The translations under genes were made by a program, and so were the position numbers. Below the pieces are notes generated by a model. The model was given only the letters and a program-made list of their open reading frames with translations. It was not told the DNA's origin and made no database searches. Below, piece by piece: positions 15,550-51,243 of a stretch of DNA of 64,000 bases; position 1 is the stretch's first letter, and every line of letters starts with the position of its first letter. The stretch is from Methylophilus sp. QUAN. GTDB taxonomy: Bacteria > Pseudomonadota > Gammaproteobacteria > Burkholderiales > Methylophilaceae. The DNA lies in NCBI RefSeq assembly GCF_015354445.1, contig NZ_JADKYT010000003.1, positions 62,001 to 126,000 of the forward strand. Direction: 5' to 3'.

Positions 15550-15713
15550 AAGGCCTCATTTCATAGGGGTATGCTCACGACTAAGCATGACCCAAGATTT
15601 GAGCAGTCCTTGGACGCAAGGCGTCTTGAAGCGGGGAGGCTGCTGAATCCCCAGTGCGCATCATAGCATATATACCGCACCCACAATGGTAGCCGACGCA
15701 GTCATAAGGCCTG

Positions 15714-31008: not shown

Positions 31009-32367
31009 ATGAGCATCTTTATATTTTCAACGATGATTATCAGTATTATTTACCTAATCGTCCTGGGTGCATGGCACAGCATTGAAGGTCCTTTTTTAGC
31101 ACACTTGGCTATTCTGGTGACAATTGCCATCGCGATCTTTTCAGCAGCGCTGGTTTTTATTGTTCAACCCCTGTTTACCAAAGCCAGCACCAATAAAAAA
31201 AGTGAGTCTACACAACAACTTTCCTGGTTAAGAGAAACCTCCAACGCCTTGTCTTCCCCCGCTGTGCTGCTGGATGGCCTGATTGTGAAATTTGCCAATA
31301 CGCCCTTCCTGCGCACACTCGGTTTGGTCGGCCTCGAAGACCAGATCAAGGGCATGCCGTTCACCAACATCATTCATCCCGCTGACCACCAGATCTTTGC
31401 TGAACTCAATGCGGAGGCAGCCACCGGAAAGACCAAAAATGAATCCACCAATATTCGCCTGATTTCACTCGATGGCTCAGCTATTCCTTCCAATGTCAGC
31501 CTCACCAAGATGCGTGAAGACAGGGATGCAAACCTCACTTTATTCCAATTTACACCGCTTTCTGCAGAACATACACTCAGCAGCCACTTTGACCCTCAAT
31601 TTAACTATCATTTCATCATCGACAAACTCGAGCAGATTGTTTTCCAGCTCAACTTTGAAGGCAAAATTGTCTTTTTAAACCCCGCCTGGGAAAGCTTTCT
31701 TGAGTACACGATCAAGGACAGCCTCAATAAAACCATTTCTGACTTTGCGCACCCTGAAGACAAGCTCATGGTGGAGTCCAGACTTGAATCCGTTGCCTAC
31801 GGCAGAAAGCCAAGTTTCACCATCGACTTGCGTTTAATCTCCCTTCAGGGAGAGTCCAACTGGTTCCGTTTGAGAGCCAGATCCTCTTCAAATATCTCTG
31901 GCGAAAGAACCAGCGTTGTCGGCACCATTACCAATATTCAAGACATCAAGGATGCTGAAGCACAACACTCGGCAAACCGTCGTGCCGCCAATGCCCTGCT
32001 CAGCCATATCCCGGGGATGATTTATCGTTGCAGACATGACAGATCATGGACCTTCGAATATGTCAGCGAGGGCTGTATTGACATCACAGGCTACGATTCA
32101 CTGGATTTACTGCACGACCCTAGTCTTACCTATAACCTGATTATCCACCCGACGGATAGAGCGGCGGTTTGGAAGTTGATTAATCAGCAAATCGCCGAAG
32201 ATGAAACCTTCAATATTGTCTACAGGATTATTACCCGCAAGGGCGAAACAAAACTGGTGCAAGAAGTTGGGCGTGGCGTATTTTCAAGCACCGGCGAGCT
32301 GTTGGCACTGGAAGGATTCATCACCGCGGTGCCTGACAAACAACACCACGTTTCCACACTATCCTGA
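31009..32367 (+). CDS. Membrane-bound multi-PAS protein with no output domain
   Basis: A 452-aa protein with two N-terminal membrane helices (about 2-20 and 28-55). Three PAS/PAC modules follow: about 70-190 (VLLDGLIVKFANTPFLRTLG), 205-325 (IVFLNPAWESFLEYT, then FRLRARSSSNISGERTSVV as a PAC) and 335-445 (FEYVSEGCIDITGYDSLDLL). It stops right after the third PAC: there is no kinase, GGDEF, EAL or phosphatase domain. It is divergent from the NarX-like kinase with 53 nt between starts. It may be an accessory sensor that modulates that kinase through PAS contacts. Confidence 0.8.
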   Translation: MSIFIFSTMIISIIYLIVLGAWHSIEGPFLAHLAILVTIAIAIFSAALVFIVQPLFTKASTNKKSESTQQLSWLRETSNALSSPAVLLDGLIVKFANTPFLRTLGLVGLEDQIKGMPFTNIIHPADHQIFAELNAEAATGKTKNESTNIRLISLDGSAIPSNVSLTKMREDRDANLTLFQFTPLSAEHTLSSHFDPQFNYHFIIDKLEQIVFQLNFEGKIVFLNPAWESFLEYTIKDSLNKTISDFAHPEDKLMVESRLESVAYGRKPSFTIDLRLISLQGESNWFRLRARSSSNISGERTSVVGTITNIQDIKDAEAQHSANRRAANALLSHIPGMIYRCRHDRSWTFEYVSEGCIDITGYDSLDLLHDPSLTYNLIIHPTDRAAVWKLINQQIAEDETFNIVYRIITRKGETKLVQEVGRGVFSSTGELLALEGFITAVPDKQHHVSTLS

Positions 32368-32577: not shown

Positions 32578-32661
32578 CGGGAGGCAATGAATATTGCCTC
32601 CCTGGCAAGCCCATTCTCGTTTGTACTGTCACTTGAGAGAGGTAAAGTACAGTGAACTTGT
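32578..32661 (-). ncRNA. Candidate small RNA downstream of orphan promoter B
   Basis: Promoter B (32668-32726) points left into a 535-nt region without a credible gene. The predicted transcript starts near 32661 with a CAAGTTCA segment, as does the folE2 leader RNA. It contains an imperfect hairpin and ends in a 24-nt perfect stem-loop (GGGAGGC arms extended to GGGAGGCAAT/ATTGCCTCCC, 32578-32601). No U-tract follows the stem, so the 3' end is uncertain. An 18-codon ORF lies inside but lacks a good ribosome site. Confidence 0.4.
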
Positions 32662-32667
32662 GCTTTT

Positions 32668-32726
32668 ATTTTCAGGCTTAAGCAGGCGGGGGACAATTCC
32701 CACTTAGGATTACTCCCTTAGGAGTA
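32668..32726 (-). promoter_or_regulatory. Promoter B: orphan NarL-like box promoter
   Basis: Box 32699-32726 starts CCCACTTAGG and has core TACTCCC-TT-AGGAGTA (32711-32726). The inverted half reads TACTCCT, a full match to the NarL heptamer consensus TACYYMT. On the minus strand AA, TTGTCC (-35, 32696-32691), 17 nt and GAAAAT (-10, 32673-32668) follow. No protein gene lies directly downstream. Confidence 0.75.
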
Positions 32727-41737: not shown

Positions 41738-43960
<2,223 letters not shown>

Positions 43961-44105: not shown

Positions 44106-45803
44106 TTAAAGTTGGTCGGTATACCAGACCACAAGAATGGCAACGGCAATGGTGACGTAAGGCAGGTGCTCGAAGAATTTTGTATATCTTGGCCGATTCA
44201 CTTGTACCTGCATGTCGCTTAGCAACTGCGTCGGGAATACGCCTTTATCTTCAAAATAATGGCGGTAAATGAATAAGGGCACGATGAGAGAAGAAAAGAA
44301 GAGCCCAGTCCTTAACGTGCCCTCGCCCCAAATTTCCGTACCCATCCCCATGATGGCCAAATTGAGGTAGCCAAGCAGCACGCCTGCGCCCATCAAGATA
44401 TTTGGTGTTTTATAAGGCCGCTCCCAATGCGGCCTGTCCATGCGATGGATCCAGCCGGCATTCAACACCAGAAAATGATAGATGATATACGCCACGTTGG
44501 AAGCCGCTAGCACAAACACATAATCCGACATCATGAGCAGGATGAGGTTATAGGAAAGGTCTGTCCACATCGCCCTGGTCGGAGAACCATTCTCATTGAC
44601 CACAGATAAATACTTGGGCAACAAACCATCCACTGAGGCTTGGTAAAGTGTTCTGGCCGAACCTGACATGGTGGTCATAATCGCCAGCAGCAAGGTGATG
44701 ATGAGCATCACCACCATGATATTGGCGATGATTGCGCCGCCACCGACAATGGAAGCCAGCGCACTGGCCACCCCATTCCCCTTATAAATATTGGCAGCGA
44801 GCATGCCGTCGTACATGGCCGGTGACTTCACTTCCCCTGCATCCCCGATCACAGCAGGCACCACCAACTCCCCTAGCCCCAAGTGACTTTGAAACGCGAT
44901 TGGCACCAAGGTAAACACGGCCATACAGAGCAATGCGGAATAAACAATCGCCTTGAAGGTATCCGCCTTGGGATCCTTAAACTCACGCGTGTAGCACAAT
45001 GCCGTTTCAAATCCATAAGTGGACCATGCTGCTACAAATAATCCGCCCGCCATCAGCTTCCAGCCATCCAGATTCCAGTCGCCATCAATGACATTGCCGT
45101 CCATGTCGTATGCTAATGGCGTGAGCGGAAAGAAATGTTCGCTGGCCAGGTCGCCAGTGACAAAAGGCACCAGTCCAATCAACAACAATGGGATGAGCGC
45201 CACCAACCCCAACACCATGGTGGTGCTGACTGAGCGTAAAATACCACCGTGCTGCACGGCGAACACCAGCAATAGAAAGGTGGCACCCAGAATGAAGGTT
45301 GCATTGATCCTCAGGCTGAGGCCCGCCTTGATCGTACTTAAATCCAGCAACGTGATTTGCCAGGTATTGATCAGCGAGTTTGCATCAAACAGGATGCTTA
45401 AAGAGTAGCCTGCGGCTAAACCTGAGCCAATCGCCAGTACCGGCGACCAGGCGGCCCAGTTACACCATACATTCAACGTAGCAATAAACTTGCTGTAGCG
45501 TATCCAGGCAACCGCACTATGGATGGACAACCCGCCAGACTTATGTGGGAACAGCCCGGCAATCTCCGCATAAGTAAAAGCCTGGATAAAACCAAAGCTA
45601 ATCGAGACCATCCACACCAGCCAGGCCGGTTTACCGACGGTTGCCGCGACAGCGCCTAGGGTGAATAAGACCAGCCCCGGCACCCCGCTTGCAATCCAAA
45701 AGGCGCCCTTCCAGCCAATGCCTCTATGCAAACCAGTTTGGGCTGCAGGTGCCTGACTGGGGAGATCAGCCGCAACGGAATGATCAGAAGAGGATAAAGT
45801 CAC
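44106..45803 (-). CDS. APC-superfamily amino acid/amine permease (paralogue 2)
   Basis: A 565-aa paralogue of the 26173-27870 permease, alignable end to end (GAFWIASGVPGLVLF, IAGLFPHKSGG, FETALCYTREFKDP, NAGWIHRMDRPHWERPYK). GTG start with no strong ribosome site. It follows ribB by 90 nt in the same direction with no terminator visible between, so it may be read from the folE2 promoter. Presumed to import a methylated amine or related compound; the different operon suggests a different substrate or affinity from paralogue 1. Confidence 0.85.
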   Translation of the reverse strand: MTLSSSDHSVAADLPSQAPAAQTGLHRGIGWKGAFWIASGVPGLVLFTLGAVAATVGKPAWLVWMVSISFGFIQAFTYAEIAGLFPHKSGGLSIHSAVAWIRYSKFIATLNVWCNWAAWSPVLAIGSGLAAGYSLSILFDANSLINTWQITLLDLSTIKAGLSLRINATFILGATFLLLVFAVQHGGILRSVSTTMVLGLVALIPLLLIGLVPFVTGDLASEHFFPLTPLAYDMDGNVIDGDWNLDGWKLMAGGLFVAAWSTYGFETALCYTREFKDPKADTFKAIVYSALLCMAVFTLVPIAFQSHLGLGELVVPAVIGDAGEVKSPAMYDGMLAANIYKGNGVASALASIVGGGAIIANIMVVMLIITLLLAIMTTMSGSARTLYQASVDGLLPKYLSVVNENGSPTRAMWTDLSYNLILLMMSDYVFVLAASNVAYIIYHFLVLNAGWIHRMDRPHWERPYKTPNILMGAGVLLGYLNLAIMGMGTEIWGEGTLRTGLFFSSLIVPLFIYRHYFEDKGVFPTQLLSDMQVQVNRPRYTKFFEHLPYVTIAVAILVVWYTDQL

Positions 45804-45893: not shown

Positions 45894-47078
45894 TCATACC
45901 GCTTTCTGCCAACTGTCCCTAGTCACGAAATCGGTGACGCTTAAACCAAAACCAGACATGCTTGGTATTTTGCGCGGTTCAGCCATTAAGCGCATATTCA
46001 AAACTCCCAAATCTCTAAGTATTTGTGCACCAATCCCATAATCTTTGAGCGTATGCTGGTTGTTTGATGGATAAGCTGCTGAGTGAATTGCATTGATAAC
46101 ATCTCCATTTTTCTCTTCACGCCTTAACATCACAATCACCCCTTCGCCGACCTGACTGATTTTGCGCATCGCATCAGGCAAGCTCCAGCTATGGTGCTTG
46201 CTACTCGCGTCCAATACGTCCAGCACAGACAAGGGCTCATGCACTCTGACTAATATACTTTTCTCTTTATTCATCGTGCCTTTCACCAAGGCCAAATGCA
46301 GTTCATTCGCCAATGACTCTTGATACGCAATCAGCTGAAAGGGTCCATAAGGGGTTTCAATGAGCCGCTCGGCGACACGCGATACCAGGCATTCTGTTTG
46401 GCTTCTGTAACTAATCAAGTCTGCGATCGTGCCAACCTTCAGGTCAAATTGCGCCGCAAACTCCAAAAGATCGGGTAAACGTGCCATTTCGCCATTATCT
46501 TTGAGGATTTCACAAATCACGGCAGAGGGGTCCAGATTTGCCAGCCTGGCGATGTCACATCCAGCTTCAGTATGACCTGCGCGTACCAACACCCCTCCAC
46601 TCTCGGCAATGAGTGGGAAGACATGCCCGGGGCTCACAATATCCAATGGTTTTGCATGTGCCTGTACAGCGGTTTTAATCGTGTGCGCCCTGTCAGCCGC
46701 TGAAATACCCGTGGAAACCCCTGCTGCGGCCTCAATAGAGGCCGTGAAGTTAGTGCCCATTTTTGTGCCATTACGGGACACCATCGGGCTGAGGTTGAGT
46801 TGTCGCCCACGTTCAGGTGAAATCGTTAAGCAAATCAAACCACGCCCATGCTTAGACATGAAGTTAATCGCCGCCGGAGTCACATGCTCAGCCGCCATCA
46901 CCAAGTCGCCTTCATTTTCCCTATCTTCATCATCCAGCAGGACAACCATGCGACCGGCCCGGATCTCTTCGATAATCTCAGTAATGGGACTAATGAGCTT
47001 TCTGGTTTTTTTATAAGTGACAGAGGCCTTGACTGATGTAGTCTGGTTTAACAAGGCACTTTCTACCGGAATATTCAT
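45894..47078 (-). CDS. ribB: 3,4-dihydroxy-2-butanone-4-phosphate synthase with degenerate GTP-cyclohydrolase-II-like domain
   Basis: A 394-aa protein. The RibB domain (about 35-235) has LLDDEDRENEGDLVMAAEHV and RAGHTEAGCDIARLA and makes the 4-carbon precursor of riboflavin from ribulose 5-phosphate. The C-terminal half is RibA-like, but the Zn-binding cysteines of true GTP cyclohydrolase II are absent (IHSAAYPSNNQHTLKDYGI in that region), so that activity is unlikely. ATG 47078 has AGGAGGG overlapping the folE2 stop: coupled translation. Within the amine regulon it would boost flavin supply for TMADH and ETF. Confidence 0.88.
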   Translation of the reverse strand: MNIPVESALLNQTTSVKASVTYKKTRKLISPITEIIEEIRAGRMVVLLDDEDRENEGDLVMAAEHVTPAAINFMSKHGRGLICLTISPERGRQLNLSPMVSRNGTKMGTNFTASIEAAAGVSTGISAADRAHTIKTAVQAHAKPLDIVSPGHVFPLIAESGGVLVRAGHTEAGCDIARLANLDPSAVICEILKDNGEMARLPDLLEFAAQFDLKVGTIADLISYRSQTECLVSRVAERLIETPYGPFQLIAYQESLANELHLALVKGTMNKEKSILVRVHEPLSVLDVLDASSKHHSWSLPDAMRKISQVGEGVIVMLRREEKNGDVINAIHSAAYPSNNQHTLKDYGIGAQILRDLGVLNMRLMAEPRKIPSMSGFGLSVTDFVTRDSWQKAV

Positions 47079-47088
47079 GATTGCCCTC

Positions 47089-47886
47089 CTACAGGTCCTG
47101 GCTCGTAATACAGGCGTACGCCGAATGATTGTGAATAGACTCAAAGTTTTCACACTCAACAACAAAACTCTTGATACGGGCTTCCTTGTAAAAGGCCGTG
47201 GCAATATCCCGCACCATGTCTTCGACAAACTTAGGGTTGTCGTAGGCGAACTCCGTCACATATTTCTCGTCAGGTCGTTTTAACAACCCATACAGTTCAG
47301 AAGACGCCTGCATTTCTACTAAACGGATGACATCTTCAACCCACATCAATGTATTGAAAGACACCGTCACCGTCACATGGGAGCGTTGATTGTGCGCACC
47401 ATAGGCAGATATCTTTTTTGAACATGGACACAGGCTGGTCACCGGAATGACGATGCGTACCTTTAAATCGTGCCCGGCTTCCGAAATCTCACCGAGAAAA
47501 GTCACTTCATAGTCCAGCAGGCTTTTGACACCTGACACTGGCGCCGCCTTGTTGACGAAATAGGGAAACGCCATTTCAATGTAGCCGGACTTCGCTTCAA
47601 GCTTGAGCGCTGTTTCATGTAACAGCAGGTAAAAATTTTCAAGCGAGATTTCGTGCTCATGATGATTGAGAATCTCGACAAACCTGGACATGTGCGTCCC
47701 TTTAAGGTGCTGCGGCAATTGCACATACATATTCAGCAGTGCAATCGTGCCTTGCGTGTCACCAGATTTATCCTTGACCTTAATCGGGTGACGAATCGCC
47801 TTAATGCCTACCTTATTGATGGCCAATTGGCGACCATCAGCAAGGTTTTGAACATCTTCTATGGGCAATGGCAGTGGTGAATTCAA
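47089..47886 (-). CDS. folE2: GTP cyclohydrolase FolE2 (type IB)
   Basis: A 265-aa GCYH-IB enzyme converting GTP to 7,8-dihydroneopterin triphosphate, the entry to folate and to methanopterin-type C1 carriers. Features: [15 protein letters not shown] near residue 63 and the metal-binding Cys in [20 protein letters not shown] near 150. It sits directly before ribB (10 nt) and behind a leader with an intrinsic terminator (47964-48000). Its presence in an amine-oxidation regulon fits a need for tetrahydrofolate or tetrahydromethanopterin to take up formaldehyde. Confidence 0.93.
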
Positions 47887-47963
47887 GATAATGCTCTTTT
47901 CTCAATCAAGTGATTGTCAGTGACGAGGTCTTTATTGCTTTGATATCCATTCCTGTACACCCC

Positions 47964-48056
47964 CAAAAAAATGGGGAGGCCAACTGGCATTAGCCTCCCC
48001 TCTTAGTGCAAGTTCAACTCGGATGTGAGGGGAAATCAGCTTGTTTCTGAACTTGA
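47964..48056 (-). ncRNA. folE2 leader RNA / candidate small RNA ending at an intrinsic terminator
   Basis: From promoter F a transcript would start near 48056. Its first segment CAAGTTCA pairs perfectly with TGAACTTG (arms 48048-48055 and 48009-48016). A terminator follows: GGGGAGGC-12 nt-GCCTCCCC (47973-48000), then seven T on the minus strand. The RNA is about 93 nt; folE2 begins 77 nt further on and needs read-through. It could be an attenuator, a riboswitch or a released sRNA. Confidence 0.55.
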
Positions 48057-48062
48057 GATTGA

Positions 48063-48121
48063 ATTTTCAAACTTGTGCGCAAGCATGACAATTGCCATTA
48101 AGGATTACTCCGTAAGGATTA
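48063..48121 (-). promoter_or_regulatory. Promoter F: NarL-like box promoter of the folE2 unit
   Basis: Box 48094-48121, core TACTCCG-TA-AGGATTA (48106-48121). It matches the promoter B box at 22 of 28 positions. On the minus strand AA, TTGTCA (-35, 48091-48086), 17 nt and GAAAAT (-10, 48068-48063). Confidence 0.75.
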
Positions 48122-48180
48122 CTTAGATCTTGATTGCCAGAATCGATTAGGCAGGATAGAAAGAGAGGGCAGAAACGAAA

Positions 48181-48211
48181 CATTCCACGTAATAGGCCAT
48201 TACGTGGAATG
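48181..48211 (-). terminator. Intrinsic terminator of the cupin gene
   Basis: CATTCCACGTAAT-5 nt-ATTACGTGGAATG is a perfect 13-bp stem, followed by TTTCGTTTC on the minus strand, 29 nt after the cupin stop. Confidence 0.82.
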
Positions 48212-48240
48212 CGGATCAGGAGGTGAAACTTGAAGCGTTA

Positions 48241-48591
48241 TTACAGAGGCGCACGTTGGCCAGTGAAGAAGCCAACTGCTTTATCTGGTGTGCTGAAAGT
48301 CACATTGCTGCCTGCTGGGAAATACAATACATCACCCACGGTTGCAGTCACTTTTTGACCGGTGTCATCAGAAATGATGAAAGTGCCTGCTACTACGATT
48401 TTCATTTCTTCGTAATCATATGAGTAGCTTAATTCATTACCGGCATGCAGGTGGAAGAAACCAGCACAGATGGTTTTGTCTTTATCTTGAGACACGAATG
48501 TATCACCCAGGAACGCTGGTACATTCGGCACATTCATTGAAGGCTGGTCATCTTTAATAGCCTGTTTTTTAAATTGAAACGGTTTACTCAT
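48241..48591 (-). CDS. EutQ-like cupin-domain protein
   Basis: A 116-aa single-domain cupin resembling the C-terminal part of the ethanolamine-utilisation protein EutQ (GFFHLHAGNELSYSYDYEEM, FIISDDTGQKVTATVGDVLYFPAGSNVTF). The classic two-His cupin metal motif is only partly kept (one His in FHLHAG). It has its own regulated promoter (G) with a short leader and its own terminator, so it is made as a single, probably abundant, product of the amine regulon. Function is unknown; an accessory or ligand-binding role in amine metabolism is a guess. Confidence 0.8.
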   Translation of the reverse strand: MSKPFQFKKQAIKDDQPSMNVPNVPAFLGDTFVSQDKDKTICAGFFHLHAGNELSYSYDYEEMKIVVAGTFIISDDTGQKVTATVGDVLYFPAGSNVTFSTPDKAVGFFTGQRAPL

Positions 48592-50053: not shown

Positions 50054-50229
50054 TTGCCGGGGTGTATTTTTCGAGATAAGTTAACCCTCCTACATAGATC
50101 AAGACACCGGATATCAAAACACTGAGCGTCCTGATAAAAACAAAAAGAGCTAACCAGCTGAATTCATGAGAGAAATCAGCGAACAAAAGCTCATGCATAT
50201 GACGGGTGTTGTCAATTAGGAGCAAAAAC

Positions 50230-51243
50230 ATGGGGAATTGTGACTTTTTAGAACGAACTGACATCATTGCCAGTACAGACTTTCATTTGATTAAGCGTGA
50301 GTCTTCCGATGTCATTGAGCAAGCAGAAGCTTTACCCTTTTGGTCGCAGGATTACACGCAGCTTGGAAAGGGCGGATTCTCAGGCTCCATCAAGAGCATT
50401 CATCACAGCGGTATCCAGATTTTTAGCGAGAAGATGAACCGCGCGGTCGACCAAATTGCCAGCGCGCCTAAAGATTGCCTGGTCATAGGATTGCCCACCA
50501 TCGTTGAGGGTGACTCAACCTGGGGACTGCTACCTGTGAAACCCCTCTCTTTAATCACACTAGGGAAAAATACCGAGTTGTATTTCAGAACTTCTGCCAA
50601 CTCTGAAATCATTGCAGCGGTGATTCCCATCAGCAGGATGCAAGCCTTCGCAAAGAAAATTGAATGGTCAGGATTTGAAGAGGCCGTCAGCACCATCAAA
50701 CCTGTAGAAATGCTACACAACGAAGCCTCCGGTCGCCTGTTAAAAACACTCACATACGGGCTTCACTCTGTTTACGAGGACTCAAATAAAGCGCACCGGA
50801 ATGAAAGCTGGGAAAACTATGAAGAGGATTTACTCGCCTCATCTATGCATGCTCTCATGCTGGCCAGCAAAAATGCTCATCCATTCTATTTTGATCACAA
50901 GATTCCAAGATATATCGTCAACCGGGTCAGGCATCTCACTCTATCGAGAGACGGCTTCCCGTTAAGCATTGACGAGATATGCGACCATTTGCGCATTCGG
51001 CGTAGAACGTTGAACTCAGCATTTGCACGCGCATTAGGCATTACACCATTAACCTATATGCGGAATCTCAAACTCCATAAAGTACGCATGGATTTAATCA
51101 CTTACCCCAGTGAAAAAGCCAGCATTTGCGAAGCGGCCTCAAGATGGGGCTTTGTCCATATGAGCCTTTTCTCAAAGTACTATAAAGAACTGTTTGGAGA
51201 GTACCCAACTGAAACACTGCAGCGAGTGAGGACAAAAGAATAA
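50230..51243 (+). CDS. AraC-family regulator (EutR-like)
   Basis: A 337-aa regulator. The N-terminal region (about 1-200) lacks a clear known fold to me. The C-terminal AraC HTH (about 235-335) reads LSIDEICDHLRIRRRTLNSAFARALGITPLTYMRNLKLHKVR, here over two helices, then WGFVHMSLFSKYYKELFGEYP. The C-terminal pattern RRTLNxAFxxxLGxxPxxYxRxxRL is that of the EutR group, which senses ethanolamine in enterics. ATG 50230 follows TTAGGAGC; the upstream TTG is rejected. It is divergent from the porin. Confidence 0.85.
   Translation: MGNCDFLERTDIIASTDFHLIKRESSDVIEQAEALPFWSQDYTQLGKGGFSGSIKSIHHSGIQIFSEKMNRAVDQIASAPKDCLVIGLPTIVEGDSTWGLLPVKPLSLITLGKNTELYFRTSANSEIIAAVIPISRMQAFAKKIEWSGFEEAVSTIKPVEMLHNEASGRLLKTLTYGLHSVYEDSNKAHRNESWENYEEDLLASSMHALMLASKNAHPFYFDHKIPRYIVNRVRHLTLSRDGFPLSIDEICDHLRIRRRTLNSAFARALGITPLTYMRNLKLHKVRMDLITYPSEKASICEAASRWGFVHMSLFSKYYKELFGEYPTETLQRVRTKE

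Follow-up and report, generated by a model that had tools for sequence, protein, structure and literature searches.

The folE2-ribBA genes of a Methylophilus trimethylamine operon are preceded by a leader that seems to stop in an intrinsic terminator, which raises the question whether this leader works as an attenuator, as a riboswitch or as the source of a released small RNA. In the window, that is the whole stretch of 64,000 nucleotides that was analysed, the minus strand carries the operon in the order folE2, ribBA, trimethylamine N-oxide permease and tmd. The folE2 gene (GTP cyclohydrolase IB; 47089..47886; Pfam PF02649, NCBIfam NF010200) begins with a TTG at 47886 and is followed by ribBA (DHBP synthase/GTP cyclohydrolase II-like; 45894..47081; NCBIfam NF010626, 562.7 bits against a cut-off of 513), whose listed open reading frame runs from 47228; this analysis places the ribBA start at an internal ATG, 47081. 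The permease occupies 44106..45803 (NCBIfam NF053774, 753.6 bits against a cut-off of 690), and tmd, encoding trimethylamine dehydrogenase, occupies 41738..43930 (1728.7 bits to PDB 1djn over query residues 2-730). A EutQ-type cupin gene (48241-48591, minus strand) lies upstream of the folE2 leader, and a second, ordinary folE2 is present elsewhere in the same genome. Folate is a carrier for formaldehyde and FMN is needed by trimethylamine dehydrogenase; the leader sits in a trimethylamine-growth regulon, where cofactor supply should match formaldehyde flux and FMN demand.

The reading that we favour, with a probability of roughly 0.6, is that the folE2 leader gives rise to a 5'-UTR-derived small RNA by premature termination, folE2-ribBA being made by read-through. 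An activator-dependent promoter of the trimethylamine regulon would start the leader RNA, which would fold at once into a 5' hairpin with a pyrimidine tract on display; most polymerases would stop at the intrinsic terminator after about 93 nt and release the short RNA, and a minority would read through to yield folE2-ribBA mRNA at a low rate. Growth on trimethylamine would then bring a modest rise in folate and flavin synthesis, with the short RNA in larger amount. Sequence comparison supplies the promoter element with its spacing, the terminator, a 5' hairpin that covaries in one genus, the tract and a constrained free-standing paralogue, and we infer the activator, the transcription start, the termination efficiency and a supply of folE2 mRNA mainly by read-through. 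A preliminary description of this DNA had named the promoter, an 8-bp stem and the terminator, all of whose coordinates hold on direct reading of the minus strand. Its proposals of termination with read-through and of the stem are supported, that of a released small RNA gains in likelihood, and that of a riboswitch sensing a pterin or flavin finds no support; the regulon element, the free-standing copy (termed orphan below) and the pyrimidine tract are additions to it.

Promoter F (48063..48091, minus strand) consists of a -35 hexamer TTGTCA (48091-48086), a 17-nt spacer and a -10 hexamer GAAAAT (48068-48063), and the predicted transcription start of the leader falls at about 48058-48056. Taken alone the match is ordinary: 9/12 positions agree, and the region contains 6 sites of this quality where shuffles give 7.0 +/- 2.5. 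Among 21 orthologous folE2 leaders, a TTGNNN hexamer followed at exactly 17 nt by NANAAT was found in 19, the exceptions being G194 (CATTAT) and G204 (AATAAT at 18). Upstream of the -35 and overlapping it lies the regulon element TAATCCTTACGGAGTAATCCTTAATGGCAATTGT (48088..48121, minus strand), an imperfect inverted repeat of the form TAMTYC-N4-GGAGTA, and the block GGAGTAATCC...ATTGT ahead of the folE2 leader recurs at other loci. A longer element pattern, allowing at most 3 mismatches, matched in 33 of the 187 genomes of Methylophilaceae and nowhere when reversed as a control, and each match that was read out precedes folE2, the permease or the orphan RNA. Diverged forms occur upstream of tmd in Methylophilaceae, with a diverged copy before tmd at 44020-44000 and a possible one before the cupin gene at 48674-48654 in the window, both on the minus strand. 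Across 399 genomes of the order, a related pattern including the -10 region matched in 4, of which 2 lie outside the family with 3 mismatches each; since the reversed control also yields 2 matches, nothing credible is seen beyond Methylophilaceae in this set. We infer that one amine-responsive activator stands behind the element and that the promoter of the trimethylamine regulon depends on it.

As separate observations on the element, the form TAMTYCNNNNGGAGTAATCCNNANTGNNNATTGT is common to folE2 and TMAO permease genes (loci L082-L124) and is diverged before tmd. An AraC-type, EutR-like regulator gene is present at 50206-51243, and nothing ties it to the regulon element. A sigma-54-like match at the leader (TGGCA-N7-TGC) was discarded, as by eye it is not kept in G013 or G027.

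The terminator (47965..48000, minus strand) reads GGGGAGGCTAAT-GCCA-GTTGGCCTCCCC-ATTTTTTT and forms 12 pairs in all, with arms GGGGAGGC (48000-47993) and GCCTCCCC (47980-47973) and seven T at 47971-47965; from the end of the T run to the folE2 TTG at 47886 there are 78 nt. The region has no surplus of terminator-like sites (5 vs 3.7 +/- 2.0 in shuffles), so it is the conservation of promoter spacing in 19/21 and of the terminator in 21/21 leaders, unlike the single-sequence tests, that raises the observation above chance. Under a loose rule (hairpin plus U run), a terminator was found in 12/12 folE2 leaders, 1/30 permease leaders and 0/12 tmd leaders, and under a stricter rule in 9/12, 0/30 and 0/12, respectively. 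Two of the 42 controls are doubtful, namely the second of the L106 entries and the window permease, for which the presumed element shows 8 mismatches, and setting them aside gives 1/40 controls with a terminator; the strict-rule count leaves out the folE2 match L064, which is not from Methylophilaceae and matches the element poorly, with 10 mismatches. Shuffled folE2 leaders satisfy the loose rule in 37/180 cases, so that single cases prove little and it is the consistency across leaders that carries weight. Nine more folE2 copies from a protein search (G183, G143, G173, G169, G170, G185, G163, G168 and G194) all showed on inspection the element, in some diverged, the 5' hairpin and the terminator.

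A terminator accordingly stands between promoter and folE2 in all 21 leaders, its U run ending 26-183 nt before the start codon as measured, leader by leader, from the terminator strings identified earlier; the hairpins persist although they vary in sequence and in size (24 to 89 nt). Between U run and start codon G104 and G194 have no more than 26 and 29 nt, which is too short for an ordinary promoter outside the hairpin, so the folE2 mRNA there would come via the terminator and folE2-ribBA is very likely made by read-through in these two genomes. With terminators in 21/21 and these short gaps, premature termination with folE2-ribBA by read-through, as claimed in the preliminary description, is well supported. 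The leader unit was absent by eye from all five upstream regions of paralogous folE2 genes that were read (two in G027 and one each in G160, G169 and G101), a comparison that leaves out four other paralogous loci.

The leader RNA is predicted to span 47965..48058 on the minus strand, a length of about 93 nt (91-94 expected) with both ends being predictions. Its 5' part forms a perfect 8-bp stem, P1, with arms CAAGTTCA at 48055-48048 and TGAACTTG at 48016-48009, which encloses the pyrimidine tract UUUCCCCUC at 48027..48035. The leader fold is moderately better than that of shuffles (z = -2.6; 3/200 shuffles as good), and P1 belongs to the minimum-energy fold when 94 nt of RNA are folded and is absent when 101 nt are, pairing of the tract with the terminator arm then replacing it. 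In an alignment of 13 rows from genus g7, the covariation of P1, P2 and terminator was 0.219 against 0.139 +/- 0.015 in shuffled alignments (0/500 as high), and the same structure slid along the alignment scored at most 0.096. Both sides change in two of the three outer P1 pairs; for the inner three, 66.7% of cells are paired, a count favoured by the structure having been taken from one row; the rows are related. The 8-bp stem of the preliminary description is backed by this covarying equivalent and by the orphan copy, where it is predicted in 2 of 3 folds. Outside these leaders the arrangement differs: G032, G104 and G204 have long 5' hairpins of differing sequence followed by UCUCCUC(U/A)C, P1 not enclosing the tract.

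The tract itself recurs widely, UCUCC being found in 18/18 leaders outside Methylophilus and UUUCCCCUC in the three Methylophilus leaders. Pairing was computed for 15 RNAs, 12 leaders and 3 orphans, and in 13 of them the tract is less paired than the RNA average; in G145 and G013 it is predicted mostly paired, with a mean unpaired value of 0.25 and 0.34, respectively. Between the window and G004 the folE2 leader RNA is identical in 70/94 columns and its surroundings in 69/109 and 54/79. As leader identity is little above that of the surroundings, the folE2 leader appears to keep its architecture rather than its letters.

A model, R1, trained on the 13 g7 leaders was searched against 187 genomes with strict filters, and all 14 strong matches are folE2 leaders of g7 genomes, the training rows themselves (13) plus G168, whose score is like that of G185; weak matches occurred in G082, G086 and G090 (E 0.016-0.29). 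That strong matches stand only before folE2 in g7 fits a cis role better than a general role in trans. R1 misses the known diverged leaders of Methylophilus, G194 and G032/G104/G204, so that further diverged copies outside g7 could escape it. Thirty genomes have a tmd of at least 85% identity (G145 partial), and a leader was found in 21 of them; of the other nine, G181 is the one from g7 and gave no R1 match. The 21 leaders span five genera, and the leader has so far been found only in Methylophilaceae.

In favour of the released-small-RNA option raised earlier, the same regulon contains a free-standing paralogue that is strongly conserved. This orphan copy (32579..32726, minus strand) has the same element (32726-32693), pyrimidine loop and purine/pyrimidine hairpin as the folE2 leader unit, with a -10 at 32673-32668 and an RNA of about 32666-32579. 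Its features include a possible P1 (32660-32653/32613-32606), whose outer stem letters CAAGUUCA/UGGGCUUG are the same as in the folE2 leader, a loop CCUCUCUC at 32642-32635 and a hairpin at 32602-32579, which is followed by GAATCCC and lacks the U run of an intrinsic terminator. P1 is part of the fold predicted for the copies of G013 and G004; for the window copy it can be drawn and is not in the fold. The orphan is also present in G013 and G004, about 15.4 kb from folE2. No conserved gene was found behind it on the minus strand, the 84-codon open reading frame of the window not being found in G004, and a plus-strand gene (31009-32367) converges on the unit. Between the window and G004, two Methylophilus species, the orphan RNA is identical in 85/88 columns (97%), the element in 27/34 and the spacer in 11/19, against 73/188 upstream and 26/51 just after the RNA; the sequence just outside the RNA is thus 39-58% identical. 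With the RNA conserved and the flanks not, the orphan looks like a free-standing small RNA under the kind of constraint that action in trans would lead one to expect. An AT-rich inverted repeat (TTAAGCTAA...TTAGCTTAA; 32527-32489, minus strand; 35/39 identical between the window and G004) lies between this RNA and the convergent gene, of PAS-domain type, and is perhaps a shared terminator.

Several known systems offer a likeness. CcsR RNAs of Rhodobacter carry a CCUCCUCCC motif and have a link to C1 metabolism. By their description, C/U-rich small RNAs of this kind resemble the folE2 leader in the C/U-rich tract and the C1 link, and differ in that the target search for the folE2 leader, given below, returned no signal. 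Vsr217 of Vibrio is a small RNA from the malK 5' UTR for which cis and trans roles are reported. It is similar in that the pathway activator drives it and that its parent 5' UTR belongs to a gene of a catabolic regulon; its genes and sequence are others, and the folE2 leader has in addition a free-standing paralogue (PMC8265627). UpsM, from the leader of the Rhodobacter sphaeroides dcw cluster, is likewise family-restricted and is released by a Rho-independent terminator in the leader; likened here by description, it differs in its 268-nt leader, its cell-division genes and its conditional RNase E cleavage (PMC5089854). In the RZ/RA small RNAs of Sinorhizobium SAM-II riboswitches, a leader terminator likewise produces a small RNA before a biosynthetic gene, but these are ligand riboswitches with a known aptamer and the folE2 leader matches no Rfam class (PMC9373788). 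Among open-licence papers, no title or abstract start describes the folE2 leader or any Methylophilus small RNA; Methylo- names and folE are absent from the main text of a survey of premature terminators (PMC2965389), and a passage of another paper mentions the dmd-tmd genes without regulation (PMC8399692). The present leader would add to the premature-termination small RNAs a Methylophilaceae member unmatched in Rfam 15, and since the regulon also contains its free-standing paralogue, genetics could tell cis from trans roles in a single laboratory methylotroph.

The alternatives are weighed below by odds that overlap and do not sum to one. A regulated attenuator may tentatively be entertained, in which the tract and the purine 5' arm of the terminator form an antiterminator and a signal (a protein, an RNA or a metabolite acting on P1) picks the fold; it overlaps with the favoured explanation, as such a device would also release a short RNA. 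The purine arm GAGGGG (47997..48002, minus strand) can pair with the pyrimidine tract as a possible antiterminator or serve as the terminator 5' arm. In the window the tract-arm pairing reaches -15.6 kcal/mol, a value attained by 4% of 133 other terminators, which come from the fetched DNA, and by 1% of shuffled upstreams, and it is the pairing that the 101-nt RNA adopts at minimum energy. In the g7 alignment 92% of its cells pair, and the first five bases of the terminator 5' arm are purine-only in 21/21 leaders against 3/133 other terminators, a difference that descent and transition bias may partly explain. However, native tract-arm pairs were no better than swapped ones (p = 0.16), the pairing in the leader set was not above the background of the 133 other terminators (p = 0.09; 0.07 for 11 representatives), and its covariation in g7 was at shuffle level; in G032, G104 and G204 the tract lies outside P1, so no common switch is kept. 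The antiterminator as a conserved switch was rejected on the swap test, the covariation and the comparison with the 133 terminators. Of the regulated attenuator proposed in the preliminary description, what stands is a strong antiterminator pairing in the window, which does not rise above background across relatives; conditional read-through is possible. As to attenuation by a leader peptide, a 20-codon open reading frame from 48098 begins upstream of the predicted leader start, and permease leaders with the same element keep none by eye.

It is unlikely that the short RNA belongs to an independent small-RNA gene upstream, with folE2-ribBA transcribed from its own promoter after the terminator. 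The orphan copy indicates that such an RNA can exist without folE2, and 57-183 nt are free after the terminator in 19/21 genomes; but in G104 and G194 only the 26 and 29 nt are free, all the strong R1 matches in g7 are folE2 leaders, and by eye no promoter is kept between terminator and start.

Under the favoured reading of a small RNA released by premature termination, some action of the leader RNA in trans is a serious minority possibility. The complement of the orphan loop, searched in G000, G013 and G004 with at most 2 mismatches, gave 33 matches (3 self) against 25 for reversed controls, and that of the leader tract in the same genomes and at the same threshold gave 12 (3 self) against 6. 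None of the 14 matches read in context occurs in all three species; three in G000 (L142, which G013 shares; L145; L158) immediately precede a possible start codon, and purine-rich ribosome sites would account by chance for sites before start codons. One such site stands as an observation of its own: at L142 (G000) and L135 (G013) a purine-rich complement of the orphan loop, with 2 mismatches, directly precedes a possible start, followed in both by a 311-codon open reading frame. Candidate targets within the regulon were tried and rejected, the tract of each leader pairing with its own tmd start region no better than with those of other genomes (p = 0.78; 20 genomes, 12 representatives) and likewise its own permease start region (p = 0.94; 12 genomes, 8 representatives). 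GGAGA in the tmd ribosome site is present in 17/20 leader genomes against 2/9 others, a distribution that follows genus and was not counted as evidence.

A more specific proposal is that one activator governs leader and orphan as a cis/trans pair, in which the fixed CCUCUCUC loop of the orphan pairs with the leader purine arm, or with SD-like purine sites elsewhere, and so sets read-through. When the orphan loop was run against the window, the folE2 leader arm came at the 1.6th percentile and other sites were stronger. We hold this pair to be quite improbable; if true, it would tie cofactor supply to amine flux.

A metabolite riboswitch that controls folE2-ribBA (of the tetrahydrofolate, pterin, FMN or preQ1 class), with pterin or flavin sensing as suggested earlier, has very little likelihood. 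The position of the leader ahead of folE2-ribBA and the presence of a hairpin and terminator would suit it, and an H-type pseudoknot might be drawn in the leader. Nevertheless, the window leader matched nothing in Rfam 15 at gathering level, the two window matches being a tRNA and chrB-b located elsewhere; 47880-48250 returned three chance-level matches only (E 8.9-9.5), and the leaders of ten related loci gave none at E<=1, nine matches falling elsewhere in those loci. Covariance models of known riboswitch classes (THF, FMN, preQ1, SAM and others) in Rfam 15 were without a match at the leaders searched. The unpaired core moreover differs between clades, and no sequence resembling a ligand core is common to all of them.

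Least probable of all is a chance hairpin or the leftover terminator of an upstream gene, which the loose-rule matches in 37/180 shuffles would favour, but the terminator is kept in 21/21 leaders of five genera, and the cupin gene has a terminator-like hairpin of its own (48180..48212, minus strand; from the terminator scan and separate from that of the leader), so that the terminator at 47965 is not needed for it.

Two minor observations arose from the Rfam search. The chrB-b RNA (RF03086) lies at 15603-15653 on the minus strand with 52.1 bits, above the gathering score, and sub-threshold V_AS9 matches were seen near folE2-ribBA at L182, L173, L175, L179, L121, L177 and L119, all of them outside the leaders.
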